Of a DNA stretch of 64,000 nt, positions 42,016 to 51,741 are shown in pieces. This DNA is from Brachyspira aalborgi. GTDB lineage: Bacteria > Spirochaetota > Brachyspiria > Brachyspirales > Brachyspiraceae. Location: the NCBI RefSeq assembly GCF_008016455.1, contig NZ_SAXU01000001.1, positions 248,001 to 312,000 on the forward strand. Reading direction: 5' to 3'. Numbering within the stretch: position 1 is the first letter of the stretch; every line of letters starts with the position of its first letter. The notes beneath the pieces were generated by a model. The model saw only the letters and a list, made by a program, of their open reading frames with translations. It was not told where the DNA came from and did not search any database. The position numbers were made by a program, and so were the translations under genes.

Positions 42016-44046
42016 ATGAAACAATTTATAGATGTCGTTAATTTTGAAATCGAAGCGGGACATGGCGGAGCTGGATGCGTTAGCTTTAGAAGAGAGGCGC
42101 ATGTCCCAATGGGCGGTCCCGATGGAGGAAACGGAGGAGACGGAGGCGATGTAATTGTAATTGTTGATGCGAGAATAAATAGTTTTGGAAAAATAAAAAG
42201 CAGAAAAAAATTCAAAGCGAGAGATGGCGAGTCGGGTAGGGCAAGATTAAGCGATGGAAAAAAAGGCGACAATGTAATAATAAGAGTTCCAATCGGCACG
42301 GTAATTTATAACGAAGAGACTGAAAATATAATTGCAGATTTAACTGAAGACGGACAGAGCGAAACTATTGCAAGAGGAGGAAAAGGTGGCAAGGGAAATA
42401 AATTCTACGCTACTTCTACAAATCAAGCGCCCGATTATGCTCAACATGGTTTAGACGGAGATAAATTAAATATAAGACTTGAAGTGAAATTAATCGCCGA
42501 TATTGGACTTGTCGGAATGCCTAATGCGGGAAAATCGAGTTTGCTTGCAAGATTAACGAGAGCAAATCCTAAAATTGCATCGTATCCTTTTACGACTCTT
42601 ACGCCAAATTTGGGAGTTTGTTATTTGGATTATGAAAGAAGTTTTATAATCGCAGATATTCCTGGAATTATAGAGGGAGCGAGCGAAGGAGCGGGATTAG
42701 GACTCACATTTTTAAGACATATTGAGAGAACGGGAGCTTTAGTTTTTGTAATCGATATAACTGACGAAGATATTAACGAAACTTATTTAAAATTAAGAAA
42801 AGAATTAAAATTATATAGCAAAGAATTAATAAAAAAGAAATCAATAATTATTTTGAATAAAACCGATATGCTTGAAAAAAAAGAAATTGAAGAGAAAATT
42901 AAAAGCGTAAAAAAAGTTATAAATAAAGAATATAAAAATAATAAAGAAAATTATTTTGAAATTCCCGAAGTATTTGCGATATCTGTTTTTAGTTTAGATG
43001 AAGAAGAATTGGAAAAAATTACAAACGCTTTATATAAGGCAAACGAATTAAGATATTTTGAAACTAAAAAAAATTATAAAGAGCCTTTATTATTAAATAA
43101 TAAAAAATTAAAAACAAAAAGAGTATTTGGTCCCGTTCTTTCAAAGAGACTTGGAAATTCTTTGGGAATAGATGTAATTCCTCATAAAACTTGTTCTTAT
43201 AATTGCATATATTGTCAATTAGGTTCTGAAGAAAATACTATAACCGATTTAACAAATTATTATTCCGTTGATGAAATAATTTACGAATTAAAAGAGGCTT
43301 TGCTTAATAATAAAAATATCGATTATATAACTTTCACGGGTTCGGGAGAGCCTACTTTATATAAAGACTTGAAAAAACTTATTTACGAAATAAAGCAAAT
43401 AACAGATATTCCCGTATGCGTAATAACTAACGGTTCTTTATTATACAAACAGGAAATGCGTTCAAATTTGCTTTTGGCAGATTTAATTATTCCATCGCTT
43501 GATGCGGGAAATGAAGAAACTTTTAAATTGATAGATAATCCTAATAAAGAAATTGATTTTGATAAAATGGTTGAAGGATTAATTGAATTCAAAAAAGTAT
43601 TCAAAGGCGAATATTGGCTTGAAATATTTTTACTTAAAGACATAAACGATAACGAAGACGAACTTGACGATATAATAAAAATTGTAAAAAAAATTAAACC
43701 CGACAGAATTCAGCTTATAACGGCGACAAGAAGAGTGGCAAATGAAAAAGCTAAAGCGTTATCTGACGAAGAGCTTAAAAAAATAAAAAAATATTTTAAT
43801 TCAAAATGCGATATTGAAATCGATATTCCAAACATTTCTGAAAATCATAAAGGAAATACGAGAATATTAACCGAAGAGGATATTGTCAATTTTTTAATTC
43901 GCCAACCTGATACGGCATATATTATAGCTAAAAGTTTTAATGAAAACGAAAGAAAAGTTAAGGAATTGTTGGACTTACTTATTAAAAAAAATAAGGTTAG
44001 AGAAGAGATTGTTAACGGAGTTGTTTCTTATGCGGTTAATATTTAA
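42016..44046 (+). CDS. Obg GTPase fused to a COG0731-like radical SAM enzyme
   Basis: The first 340 residues of this 676-residue protein are a full Obg GTPase: the glycine-rich Obg fold (GHGGAGCVSFRREAHVPMGG, GGNGGDGGDV), the G1 motif GMPNAGKSS (about 167-175), DIPGIIEGASEGAGLG, and NKTD. Instead of the usual C-terminal OCT or TGS-type domain there is a radical SAM module of the COG0731 type: FGPVLSKRLGNSLGIDVIP then CSYNCIYCQLG with the cluster cysteines C393, C397 and C400, and GSGEPTLY. A winged-helix-like tail ends the protein. Obg acts in 50S ribosome assembly and stress control. The radical SAM family is related to tRNA wyosine-type enzymes. The reading frame is continuous. A start with AAAGGA supports the ATG chosen. 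Confidence 0.93.
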   Translation: MKQFIDVVNFEIEAGHGGAGCVSFRREAHVPMGGPDGGNGGDGGDVIVIVDARINSFGKIKSRKKFKARDGESGRARLSDGKKGDNVIIRVPIGTVIYNEETENIIADLTEDGQSETIARGGKGGKGNKFYATSTNQAPDYAQHGLDGDKLNIRLEVKLIADIGLVGMPNAGKSSLLARLTRANPKIASYPFTTLTPNLGVCYLDYERSFIIADIPGIIEGASEGAGLGLTFLRHIERTGALVFVIDITDEDINETYLKLRKELKLYSKELIKKKSIIILNKTDMLEKKEIEEKIKSVKKVINKEYKNNKENYFEIPEVFAISVFSLDEEELEKITNALYKANELRYFETKKNYKEPLLLNNKKLKTKRVFGPVLSKRLGNSLGIDVIPHKTCSYNCIYCQLGSEENTITDLTNYYSVDEIIYELKEALLNNKNIDYITFTGSGEPTLYKDLKKLIYEIKQITDIPVCVITNGSLLYKQEMRSNLLLADLIIPSLDAGNEETFKLIDNPNKEIDFDKMVEGLIEFKKVFKGEYWLEIFLLKDINDNEDELDDIIKIVKKIKPDRIQLITATRRVANEKAKALSDEELKKIKKYFNSKCDIEIDIPNISENHKGNTRILTEEDIVNFLIRQPDTAYIIAKSFNENERKVKELLDLLIKKNKVREEIVNGVVSYAVNI

Positions 44047-45622: not shown

Positions 45623-47092
45623 ATGTTTGAAAATGTAGGAACTTATTTACAATTACTTTCAGAGGAAAAAGATATTAGCGTTGACCTTCTTAAAGAGGTT
45701 ATAGAATCTACTATGATTTTAGCCTTAAAAAAGAAATACGGAAACGATACTAACTTCCATATTAATTTTGACGAAAAAAATAATCCGACTGTTTATAGAG
45801 CGGTAATAGTCGTTGAAAATGTAGAAGACGATAAAAAAGAAATTTCTTTAGAAGAAGCTAAAAAACTTGATGAAGATATTAATTTGGGAGACGAAGTTTT
45901 ATTATTAGTCGACCATGTGGAAGAGTTTGGCAGAATAGAAAGCACGGTTGCAAAAACTACATTCTTTCAAAAAATTGCAGAACTTGAAAAAAATATTATT
46001 TATAACGAATTCAAAAGACGAGAAAATCAACTTGTAAACGGATATTTTCAAAGAGAAACGAGAGGAAATATTTATGTTAATTTAGGCAAAACGGAAGGAA
46101 TTTTATTAAGAAAAGACCAATCTCCAAGAGAGCATTATTCGGTTGGCGATAGAATAAGAGCCTATATTTATAAAGTTGAAAACGATAGAGGCGGACATCC
46201 TACGATTTATTTAACGAGAAGCAAAGGCGCTTTTATTAAAAAACTTTTTGAACTTGAAATACCAGAAGTGGCGGACGGAACTATAGAAATAAAAAATATA
46301 GTCCGACAACCAGGATTAAAAATAAAAATGTCCGTAATCTCAAATAAGCCAGAAGTCGACCCTGTTGGCGCTTGCATCGGGCAGAAGGGAATTAGAATTC
46401 AATCGATTATAAAAGAAATAGAAGGCGAAAAAATCGATGTCGTAAAATGGTCTAAAGATATAAGAGAATATATAGCCGAAGCAATATCGCCTGCAAAACC
46501 TATAAGAATAATAATCACAGAGCCTGAAAATAAAGAAGCAATGATTATAATTCCTGACGAACAATTAACTTTAGCGCTTGGCAAAAGCGGTTATAATGTT
46601 AAACTTGCATCTCAACTTACGGGTTATACTTTTGACTTAAAAACCGAAACAGATATTAAATCGAATCCTGAATTATTAAAAGATTTAGTTCCTTTAAGTC
46701 AAATATTCTCCGATAATTCCGAAGAAACTGAAGATACAGCCTCACAAGAAGAAAATAAAGAAGTCGTAAGTAATCTTTATTCTCTTTCTGGAGTAGATAA
46801 AGAGATTATAGAAACTTTAATTAATAACAATATCAATTCTATAGAAGAGCTTTATAGTTTATCTGCAGAAGAAATTATGGAAAAAACAAATTTAGATAAA
46901 GATACGGTTGATAATATAATAAATATACTTAAAGAAGTTGTTACGGTAGTAGAATCTGACGAAGAAGGCTACGAAACTACAGAAGAAGTTGTTGAAGAGA
47001 TTGAAGTTTATGAATGTCCAAATTGCGGTTCTACAATAACGGAAGATATGACAAAATGTCCTAAATGCGGAGTTGAACTCTCTTTTGAATAA
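45623..47092 (+). CDS. nusA: Transcription factor NusA with C-terminal zinc ribbon
   Basis: The 489-residue protein has the NusA N-terminal domain (1-125), an S1 domain (about 130-200), two KH domains (about 225-345, with ACIGQKGIRIQSI and LALGKSGYNVKLA), and a helix-hairpin-helix-like region around residues 380-435. The end is unusual: four cysteines, CPNC and CPKC (C465, C468, C479, C482), form a zinc-ribbon. NusA modulates pausing, termination and antitermination by RNA polymerase. infB, which usually follows nusA, is absent; two methyltransferases follow instead. A GGAG site precedes the ATG. Confidence 0.95.
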   Translation: MFENVGTYLQLLSEEKDISVDLLKEVIESTMILALKKKYGNDTNFHINFDEKNNPTVYRAVIVVENVEDDKKEISLEEAKKLDEDINLGDEVLLLVDHVEEFGRIESTVAKTTFFQKIAELEKNIIYNEFKRRENQLVNGYFQRETRGNIYVNLGKTEGILLRKDQSPREHYSVGDRIRAYIYKVENDRGGHPTIYLTRSKGAFIKKLFELEIPEVADGTIEIKNIVRQPGLKIKMSVISNKPEVDPVGACIGQKGIRIQSIIKEIEGEKIDVVKWSKDIREYIAEAISPAKPIRIIITEPENKEAMIIIPDEQLTLALGKSGYNVKLASQLTGYTFDLKTETDIKSNPELLKDLVPLSQIFSDNSEETEDTASQEENKEVVSNLYSLSGVDKEIIETLINNNINSIEELYSLSAEEIMEKTNLDKDTVDNIINILKEVVTVVESDEEGYETTEEVVEEIEVYECPNCGSTITEDMTKCPKCGVELSFE

Positions 47093-47105: not shown

Positions 47106-48008
47106 ATGATTTGTAAAGTTTGCGAAAGCGATAAATATAATAAAATCGGCGAGATTAAAGGAATTTGGAAAGAAAATAAAAATATTTATCAATGCGAAAA
47201 ATGTTTTTTATATTTTATAGAATCTCCAAGCGATGAAGAAATTTATTTATTGTATAAAAACGAATATCATAATAGCATAAAAAATAAAATATTCGAGTTT
47301 GCAAAAAGCAAAATGCGATATTCAAGATGCTTAAATCAATTTAATTTTATAAAAGCTAATATAAATTGCGACAATAAAAAAGTATGCGAAATCGGAGCTT
47401 TTGACGGATTATTATTAAATATATTCAAAAATAATAAATGCGAAGTTCACGGATACGAACTTAACGACAGGGCGAGAGAATATGCAAAAAATAAATATAA
47501 TATATACTTAAAACAAAATTTTTTAGAAGATAATCAAAAATACGATATTATAATTCTTTCGCATGTTATAGAGCATTTCAAAGAGCCTAAAGAAATTTTA
47601 TTAAAAATAAAATCTATGTTAAACGAAAACGGATTTATTTATATAGAAGTTCCTAACTCTCCGTTAAAAAATCAATGTTCTTATGAAACGCTTATTAAAT
47701 ATTTAACAACTACTCATACGGTTAATTTTAATATTGATAATTTAAAAACTTTTGTAGAAAACGGAGGCTTTAAAATAATTAAATATCAATATTACGATTA
47801 TAATGTAAATAAAAATAATGAAAAACTTAAAATAAGTTTGCTTGAAGGCGGTTTTCCTTCTTTTGATAATCTTTTTAATTTTTTATTAATCGCCTTAAAA
47901 ACTATAATTTATCCGAAGTCAGTTTTTATTAACTATGACGATAATAAAAATATTTGGAGCTATGGAGAAAATATAAGAATAATAGCGAAGGAGCGGATTT
48001 TTGAATAA
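47106..48008 (+). CDS. SAM-dependent methyltransferase with zinc motif
   Basis: The 300-residue protein has an N-terminal zinc-binding module (C3xxC6 and YQCEKC) typical of many class I methyltransferases, followed by a SAM-binding motif KVCEIGAFDGLLLNIF and a post-motif HVIEHFKEP. Sequence of this type methylates small molecules or sugars, often in surface-glycan pathways. The start is 13 nt after nusA with no clear ribosome binding site, so it may be coupled to nusA. A paralogue follows with an 8-nt overlap. Confidence 0.85.
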   Translation: MICKVCESDKYNKIGEIKGIWKENKNIYQCEKCFLYFIESPSDEEIYLLYKNEYHNSIKNKIFEFAKSKMRYSRCLNQFNFIKANINCDNKKVCEIGAFDGLLLNIFKNNKCEVHGYELNDRAREYAKNKYNIYLKQNFLEDNQKYDIIILSHVIEHFKEPKEILLKIKSMLNENGFIYIEVPNSPLKNQCSYETLIKYLTTTHTVNFNIDNLKTFVENGGFKIIKYQYYDYNVNKNNEKLKISLLEGGFPSFDNLFNFLLIALKTIIYPKSVFINYDDNKNIWSYGENIRIIAKERIFE

Positions 48009-48935
48009 TATAAATTTAAATAAAAAATTATGTCCTTTATGCGAAGCGGAAGCTAATGAAAATAATATAGTCGATATTGTAGAAAATATTTGGGAAAATA
48101 ATAAAAATGTTTACGAATGTAGTAATTGCAAACTTTATTTTATAGACGAGCCTTCTCAAAGCGAAATTAAATTTTTATATAATAGCGATTTTTATGCAAG
48201 GAATAATAATATTATTTATAAATTTATTGACGCTAAAATGAAATATGCAAGAGCTTTAAATAGATTTAATTATATAAAAAAATTTATTAAAAAAACTGAC
48301 AATTTAAATGTTTTGGAAATAGGCGCATCGGACGGACTTTTGCTTTCTATTTTTAAAAAAGAAAATTTTAATGTTTTTGGATACGAATTAAATGAAAATG
48401 CAAGAAAGGACGCTTTAAAAAAATACGATATAAAAATGAAAGATGATTTTTTGAAAGATAAAAATATTGATAAAAATAAATATAATATCGTTATAATGTC
48501 GCATATTTTAGAGCATTTTACAAATCCAAAATATATTTTAAATGGCGTTCATAACTTCATAGGGGGGGGGTAAACGATATCTTATTTATTGAAATTCCAT
48601 ATACTCCAAATTATAAAATAGTTTCAAAAGACGACATGAAAATATTTTTTGAAACCGAGCATACGGTTCATTTTAACGAAAAGAATATTTCGCTTTTAAT
48701 GAAAGAATGCAATTTTAAGATTTTGGATATTTGCTATAACGAATATAATATAAACGATAATAATTTGAAGAAAAATATATGGCTTGGAAAATTTGATTTT
48801 AAATCGTCAATAAATTTTTTGTATTTTATCTCTAAAATTTGTTTTAATCCAAAAAACGCTTTTATAGATTATAAAATTTCTGATAATTTTAATTTTGGAA
48901 GGAATATAAGAATAATAGCTGCAAAAAATAATTAA
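48001..48935 (+). pseudogene. Second methyltransferase, frameshifted at a poly-G tract (phase-variable?)
   Basis: The gene is a paralogue of the methyltransferase just upstream (CPLC and YECSNC zinc motifs, NVLEIGASDGLLLSIF, SHILEHFTNP). It starts at TTG at 48001, 7 nt after an AAGGAG site. At 48562-48570 a run of nine G shifts the frame and the protein stops at 48573 after 190 residues. The rest, which matches the paralogue (FIEIPYTPN, ETEHTVHFNEKN), is open in another frame up to 48935. Ten or seven G would restore a continuous protein of about 311 residues. The intact coding of both halves fits phase variation by slipped-strand mispairing better than old decay, but a sequencing error in the tract or true inactivation is possible. 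Confidence 0.85.
48562..48570. repeat. Poly-G tract (G9) inside a methyltransferase gene
   Basis: Nine consecutive G occur in an AT-rich gene, exactly at the frameshift point between the two homologous halves. It is the only such run of G noticed in the window. Confidence 0.95.
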
Positions 48936-49920: not shown

Positions 49921-51741
49921 ATGATAAAAAAAATAATATTAATTGCTATTATAACTATTATAACTTTTGGAGTAATAGCCTGTTCTTCAAATTCGGGAGA
50001 AGCGTTAATAGATACCGCGAGGAATGAAGATTTAGAAACGGCTAAACTTTTAATAGAGAATGGCGCGGATATTAACGCTAATGATAAAGACGGAGTGACG
50101 GATTTAATGCAGGCTTCGGAAAATGGGAATTTAGAAACCGTAAAGGATTTAGTAGAAAGAAAACGAGTAAATATTAACGCTAAAGATGAAGATGGTTATA
50201 CCTCTTTAATGTATGCTTCATTTAATGGAAATTTAGAAATAGTCAAATATTTAGTAGAAAATGGAGCGGATGTCAACGCTAGAGTTGATAACGACTGGAC
50301 AGCTTTGGAATTTGCTTCAGGAAAAGGACATTTAGAAATAGTTAAATATTTGTTAGAAAACGGAGCGGATATTAATTCTGGAAGTGAACGGAACGGCGGA
50401 GCTTTATTGAATGCTTCAGCTAATGGACATTTAGAAATAGTTAAATATTTGATAGAAAACGGAGCGGATATTAACGCTGAAGATAATATTGACTGGACGG
50501 CTTTAATATGGGCTTCATATAATGGGCATTTAGAAATAGTTAAATATTTGGTAGAAAACGGTGCGGAGATTGATTATTATATTGACAAGTCGGCTTTAAT
50601 GAATGCTTCATATAATGGACATTTAGAAATAGTTAAATTTTTAATAGAAAACTACGCGGAGATTGACGCTAAAGATAATAATGGTAATACCGCTTTAATG
50701 TATGCTTCAATAAGTGGAAATTTAGAAATAGTTAAATATTTATTAGAAAATGGAGCGGATATTAACTCTAAAAATGATGACGGCGTAACGGCTTTATTGA
50801 ATGCTTCATATGAAGGACAATTAGAAGTAGTTAAATATTTAATAGAAAACGGCGCGGATATTAATACTAATGATAAAGACGGCGTTACGGATTTAATGCA
50901 GGCTTCGGCATTTGGTAATTTAGAAATGGTTAAATATTTGATAGAAGATATTGAAGTCGATATAAACGAAAAAGATAATATTGACAGGACGGCTTTAATA
51001 GTCGCTTCATTTAATGGACATTTAAAAATAGTTAAATATTTAGTAGAAAACGGAGCGGATATTAACGCTAATGATAAAGACGGAGTGACCGCTTTAATGA
51101 ATGCTTCAAAAGAAGGTAATTTAGAAATAGTTAAATATTTGGTAGAAAAAGGGGCTAATGTTAATATTAAAGATAATGAAGGTAAAACCGCTTTAATTAA
51201 TGCTTCATACGAAGGACAATTAGAAATAGTTAAATTTTTAATAGAGAATGGCGCGGATGTTAATCTCAAAAATAATAACGGACAAACTGCTTTAATGTAT
51301 GTTTCAAATTTAGAAATAGCTAAATATTTATTAGAAAATGGCGCGGATATTAACGCTAAAGATAGTAAGTGGGGCTATACCGCTTTAATATACGCCACAG
51401 AATATGGAAATTTAGAAACGGTTCAATTTTTAATAAAGAACGGAGCGAATATTAACGCTCAAGATGATATTGGCAGAACGGCTTTAATTAATGCTTCATT
51501 TAATGGACATTTAAAAATAGTTAAATTTTTAATAGAGAATGGCGCGGATGTTAATATTAAAAATAATTATGGAATAACCGCTTTAATATACGCTGCAGAA
51601 CATGGAAATTTAGAAATAGTTAAATATTTGGTAGAAAAAGGGGCTAATGTTAATATTAAAGATAATCATGGAAGAACCGCTTTAGATTTGGCGGAAACCG
51701 AAGAGATAAAAAAAGTATTGAGGAAAGCTGGAGCTAAATAA
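49921..51741 (+). CDS. Ankyrin-repeat lipoprotein
   Basis: The 606-residue protein starts with a signal peptide and lipobox GVIAC (Cys21). The remainder is about seventeen 33-residue ankyrin repeats of the form DGxTALMxASxxGxLEIVKYLIENGADINAKD, to the C-terminus. Secreted ankyrin proteins often bind partner proteins. The repeats are close enough at DNA level to recombine: 51118-51177 and 51607-51666 are identical over 60 bp by eye. An imperfect hairpin lies just after the gene. The lipobox implies an outer face anchor; the binding partner is unknown. Confidence 0.92.
   Translation: MIKKIILIAIITIITFGVIACSSNSGEALIDTARNEDLETAKLLIENGADINANDKDGVTDLMQASENGNLETVKDLVERKRVNINAKDEDGYTSLMYASFNGNLEIVKYLVENGADVNARVDNDWTALEFASGKGHLEIVKYLLENGADINSGSERNGGALLNASANGHLEIVKYLIENGADINAEDNIDWTALIWASYNGHLEIVKYLVENGAEIDYYIDKSALMNASYNGHLEIVKFLIENYAEIDAKDNNGNTALMYASISGNLEIVKYLLENGADINSKNDDGVTALLNASYEGQLEVVKYLIENGADINTNDKDGVTDLMQASAFGNLEMVKYLIEDIEVDINEKDNIDRTALIVASFNGHLKIVKYLVENGADINANDKDGVTALMNASKEGNLEIVKYLVEKGANVNIKDNEGKTALINASYEGQLEIVKFLIENGADVNLKNNNGQTALMYVSNLEIAKYLLENGADINAKDSKWGYTALIYATEYGNLETVQFLIKNGANINAQDDIGRTALINASFNGHLKIVKFLIENGADVNIKNNYGITALIYAAEHGNLEIVKYLVEKGANVNIKDNHGRTALDLAETEEIKKVLRKAGAK

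Follow-up and report, generated by a model that had tools for sequence, protein, structure and literature searches.

A nine-G tract splits a putatively phase-variable methyltransferase gene in Brachyspira aalborgi, with similar tracts in further glycan and surface genes

Background

Phase-variable SAM methyltransferases with poly-G tracts are well established in Campylobacter, where Cj0170 and UbiE_3 are examples (PMC6321876). Within the spirochaetes, the poly-G tracts of Treponema pallidum (tprL, tprE/G/J, tp0126) vary in length in vivo and mostly consist of nine G (PMC7864442).

Here we describe a split methyltransferase gene found in a 64-kb stretch of the B. aalborgi genome (64,000 nucleotides, referred to as the window). 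It resembles the Campylobacter system, in which tracts of 8 to 13 G lie inside a SAM methyltransferase gene, and the likeness extends to the many tracts per genome, with lengths peaking at 9 and 10, and to targets that include glycan and surface genes (PMC6321876). However, variation in Campylobacter has been documented across many strains, whereas the B. aalborgi tract is known from one genome, and the Brachyspira tracts belong to a spirochaete with MutS1 and MutL. T. pallidum is a spirochaete as well and has poly-G tracts of similar length, but the tracts studied there are located in promoters and act on the transcription of outer membrane proteins, whereas the Brachyspira tract lies within a reading frame (PMC7864442).

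The paper on the B. aalborgi genome mentions neither phase variation nor homopolymers or frameshifts (PMC6779451). A search of the open literature, which covered few subscription papers, yielded no report of SSR phase variation for Brachyspira. The kind of mechanism is known; a Brachyspira phasome that includes the split methyltransferase gene appears to be unreported in the papers searched.

Genomes and sequence comparison

The window originates from strain B. aalborgi 513A(T). The genome of this strain comprises 2,504,147 bp in 8 contigs and was assembled from MiSeq 2x300 reads with an average coverage of more than 300-fold (PMC6779451). The species used for comparison was B. catarrhinii, represented by strain Z12 (contig NZ_SJDU01000057.1, split-gene locus L084:2823-4720), and one genome per species was compared. 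G run lengths were counted genome-wide by pattern searches, and a mononucleotide run of approximately 7-8 G or more within a reading frame was regarded as long enough to slip. Structure model and fold search were carried out with the intact paralogue in place of the joined-frame protein. The features of the locus and the tract-bearing genes of B. aalborgi are listed in Table 1.

Table 1. Features of the split-gene locus (positions within the window) and tract-bearing genes of B. aalborgi
Feature	Location	Strand	Basis or remark
nusA, upstream neighbour	45623..47092	+	Pfam NusA_N, KH_5
Intact tandem paralogue, 300 aa, Methyltransf_23 with N-terminal CxxC...CxxC	47106..48008	+	ORF, Pfam, alignment; AlphaFold pLDDT 87
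Putative ribosome-binding site GGAG, 7 bases 5' of the TTG start	47990..47993	+	Read from the sequence
Split class I SAM methyltransferase gene, putatively phase-variable, TTG start to stop of the downstream frame	48001..48935	+	ORFs, joined reading, Methyltransf_23 on upstream half, B. catarrhinii orthologue
Upstream frame of 190 aa, the last three (GGG) encoded by the tract, TAA immediately after the tract	48001..48573	+	Sequence and ORFs
Poly-G tract, nine G, coding for the Gly turn before strand beta-5	48562..48570	+	Sequence; position of the turn from alignment and model
Downstream frame, 120 open codons plus stop, purifying selection	48573..48935	+	dN/dS 0.117 versus B. catarrhinii
FkbM methyltransferases with tract	L069, L071, L072	- (L072 copy)	FkbM among the genes split
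Other class I methyltransferases with tract	window gene, L078, L082		Class I genes also among those split
Radical SAM/SPASM protein with tract	L072	+	In frame
GT10 fucosyltransferase with G8 tract	L073:2450-3589 (G000:C1 ~1059404)		In frame
GT2 with tract	L083		Out of frame
Serpulina_VSP variable surface protein split by G9	L077:2739-3901 (G000:C1 ~1700376)		Out of frame

Structure of the split gene and its neighbourhood

The sequence-only reading had reported a run of nine G which breaks a methyltransferase gene near nusA into two open halves, and this description is exact. The run at 48562-48570 is the sole G run of at least 8 on both strands of the window, compared with a mean of 0.06 such runs in dinucleotide shuffles. 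The upstream half consists of 187 codons from the TTG at 48001 to the tract, followed by GGG GGG GGG TAA. At its start the gene overlaps the stop of the preceding gene, and the putative GGAG site in front of it does not recur at this distance in B. catarrhinii. Downstream of the tract, 120 codons from 48573 are free of stops up to the stop codon at 48933-48935; the other two frames contain 12 and 18 stops.

Computation of the frames agreed with the expectation that ten or seven G restore one protein of about 311 residues. The two halves are joined by all lengths of 1 mod 3 (7, 10, 13), with G10 yielding 311 codons, and other lengths lead to a stop soon after the tract, so unit changes in length switch between a full-length and a truncated product. 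A reading of the tract from the C strand, as proline, was rejected since opposite-strand frames are short here.

Both halves match the intact paralogue directly upstream, as had been claimed, with identities of 47% (upstream half) and 37% (downstream half). This intact copy is the usual neighbour of nusA in Brachyspira. The gene order is nusA-intact-split in B. aalborgi and nusA-split-intact in B. catarrhinii. When the swapped methyltransferases are compared (47106-48935 versus L084:2823-4720), TTTGAATA forms the end of the gene that precedes the split copy in either species, and this shared ending is a possible short homology for the rearrangement between B. aalborgi and B. catarrhinii.

Elsewhere in the window, an Obg GTPase (GTP1_OBG and MMR_HSR1) and a radical SAM domain are fused in a single ORF of 676 aa (42016-44046), and a lipoprotein-like protein of 606 aa at 49921-51741 contains many ankyrin repeats that resemble one another.

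Conservation of the tract and selection on both halves

The orthologue of B. catarrhinii shares 78% identity with the upstream half and 87% with the downstream half. It carries the tract at the same codon, here also as G9 and out of frame, so that the locus reads OFF in both species, each represented by one genome. Stops in the downstream part of relatives had been named as evidence against switching; none was found in B. catarrhinii, where 119 codons are open. A more distant MAG (G019, L011) contains an intact 300-aa orthologue without tract, which has HSMLNDNGLLYIEIP at the position where the split gene has "HNFI-Gn-NDILFIEIP". Because of this tract-free orthologue, the tract was probably gained in the aalborgi/catarrhinii lineage.

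An error of sequencing or assembly in the homopolymer, the gene being simply intact or simply broken, has to be considered, given the draft state of the assemblies and the proneness of homopolymers to error. However, an artefact is unlikely because of the more than 300-fold MiSeq coverage and the presence of the same tract in the independently sequenced B. catarrhinii (L084). Moreover, a miscall of one base would still leave a long tract and the genome-wide excess described below. We regard this explanation as extremely improbable.

Across 119 codons of the downstream half, the two species are separated by 16.5 nonsynonymous and 22.5 synonymous changes, corresponding to a dN/dS of 0.117. For the same species pair the ratio was 0.25 in the upstream half, 0.13 in the intact paralogue, 0.08 in nusA and 0.16 in the DUF4390 neighbour. 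The nonsynonymous fraction in the downstream half was approximately 42% versus 75-83% expected under neutrality, which was rejected with p values from 5e-9 to 3e-5 depending on the assumed transition bias. Coding capacity has been kept by selection on either side of the tract. For a large part of its history the out-of-frame half has been translated and of use, which speaks against a dead gene.

These values bear on an alternative reading as a pseudogene, in which the split copy would be a redundant duplicate, inactivated for good by the frameshift at the G run, while the paralogue does the work. Such a duplicate would be in line with the intact paralogue adjoining the split gene and with the identical out-of-frame length in both genomes. 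Nevertheless, we consider it quite improbable. The downstream half is stop-free in both species and, since purifying selection on it is as strong as on the intact paralogue, it is not a decaying pseudogene; in addition, the genome-wide excess of long, mostly intragenic G tracts speaks against this reading.

Poly-G tracts across the genome

The genome of 513A contains 18 G runs of at least 8, where approximately 0.4 would be expected by decay, whereas runs of exactly G7 number only 2 and those of exactly G6 number 11. The run-length distribution is bimodal. B. catarrhinii has 16 runs of at least G8 versus one of exactly G7; the remaining Brachyspira genomes have between 0 and 8, and G7 is commoner in most of them. 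The tracts in 513A are 8 (three tracts), 9 (five), 10 (four), 11 (two), 12 (two), 13 (one) and 17 G (one) long, G9 being the commonest length. Loss of mismatch repair as the cause of so many tracts was ruled out, as MutS1 and MutL are present in B. aalborgi and across Brachyspira. Given these genes, slippage may be slower than in Campylobacter.

The frame states of the tract genes in 513A are mixed (in, +1 and +2 at lengths of 8-17), which fits random slippage and not a programmed -1 frameshift. If ribosomes were programmed to shift by -1 on G9, or if transcription slipped there, a steady full-length fraction would be produced from unchanged DNA. A run of G may serve as a slippery site, here with a stop directly after it, and the tract length is the same in both species. 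However, the equal G9 says little when G9 is the commonest length, and a fixed -1 shift does not explain the other tract genes, some of which would have to be shifted in one direction, some in the other and some not at all. Additionally, a stimulatory RNA structure adjoining the tract was not found beyond the level of shuffles (z -0.23 and -0.14). Programmed frameshifting or transcriptional slippage is thus a very improbable explanation.

Methyltransferases, glycosyltransferases, radical SAM and surface proteins are over-represented among the tract genes. The B. catarrhinii set contains methyltransferases and GT2s along with radical SAM proteins and sugar or solute transporters. The GT10 gene of B. 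aalborgi has a tract which the 88%-identical gene of B. catarrhinii lacks, and this suggests a recent birth of the tract; the gene of a further genome (G020) is also without it. In Helicobacter pylori, Lewis antigens are shaped by phase-variable fucosyltransferases.

Two long tracts of B. aalborgi, G17 (L074:9869) and G13 (L076:2989), were found outside long open frames. They are perhaps located in promoters, as in Treponema pallidum.

Recurrence of tracts at one glycine turn

In the alignment of the methyltransferases, the tract stands in place of the Gly turn that connects a helix to strand beta-5. The Gly at this turn is invariant in the alignment of the nusA-linked methyltransferase family. 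AlphaFold modelling of the intact paralogue places it (residue 176) between helix 161-170 and strand 172-183.

The same turn carries a tract in at least three groups: the window gene with its orthologue, the homologous genes in L082 and L141, and a tandem pair of Zn-ribbon-like methyltransferases of other Brachyspira. Tract lengths are n=11 in L082 and n=14 in L141; in the tandem pair they are 12, 10, 8 and 9 in the first copies and 10, 10 and 13 in the second copies of different species. Five further methyltransferase tracts are situated elsewhere in the protein. Array paralogues (G003 against G005), compared with regard to recombination at the tract, share 95% identity upstream of it and 65% downstream.

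The tandem Zn-ribbon methyltransferases belong to a glycan locus found in other Brachyspira (L096, L097, L098, L101 and L102), arranged as radical SAM/SPASM, the methyltransferase pair and GT9 of the heptosyltransferase family. Here poly-G occurs in the first, the second or both methyltransferase copies, and in L101 the radical SAM gene bears a tract as well.

Putative function of the enzyme

Pfam assigned the upstream half and the intact paralogue to Methyltransf_23, and only generic methyltransferase families were found. No DNA-methylase family was matched in the Pfam and NCBIfam scans. A phasevarion DNA methyltransferase was rejected, as a DNA methyltransferase domain was found by neither scan.

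The solved folds closest to the intact paralogue are the dTDP-sugar C-methyltransferases TcaB9, KijD1 and MtmC, although the matches are weak (TM approximately 0.6, 11-14% identity). In them, as in the intact paralogue, a CxxC...CxxC segment at the N-terminus precedes the class I methyltransferase domain, but they are about 100 residues longer and their identity to it is low. The three-domain architecture of the TcaB9/KijD1 type, with Methyltransf_13 and Methyltransf_14 around Methyltransf_23, was not found in the intact paralogue, so the likeness is one of fold only. Based on the dTDP-sugar C-methyltransferase folds and the GT9-linked paralogues, the substrate is most likely a sugar of a surface glycan.

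Proposed mechanism

Switching by simple-sequence slippage had been suggested from the G run, and the comparative data strengthen this suggestion: the codon of the tract is conserved, purifying selection acts on the out-of-frame half, the genome has far more long G tracts than expected, in mixed frames, and tracts of homologous methyltransferases vary in length between species, although the directly orthologous pair is G9 in both. We therefore think it highly probable that the split gene is a contingency gene, a sugar or surface methyltransferase subject to slipped-strand, translational phase variation.

Slipped-strand mispairing at the tract during replication would add or remove G residues; slippage in growing cells and its reversibility are inferred. 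Lengths of 1 mod 3 would be ON and give the full-length class I methyltransferase of approximately 311 aa, all others would be OFF. With G9, a truncated product of 190 aa lacking beta-5 to beta-7 would be made. The Gly turn before beta-5 probably accommodates one or two additional glycines. Switching of a sugar-methylating enzyme would in turn alter the cell surface.

Conclusions

On the whole we lean, with some reserve, towards a wider phasome of 16-18 tracts in B. aalborgi and B. catarrhinii, which would combinatorially switch glycan methylation, fucosylation, glycosyl transfer and a Vsp surface protein. In Brachyspira, this Gly turn of class I methyltransferases would be a structural hot spot for new switches, at which poly-G tracts have arisen repeatedly.

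Phase switching would account for split genes which are annotated as broken, with the warning that single consensus genomes may misreport tract-split genes as pseudogenes. In colonic spirochaetosis, a dense bacterial layer persists on the human epithelium. Stochastic switches acting on surface sugars and Vsp would give B. aalborgi a testable means of coat variation.
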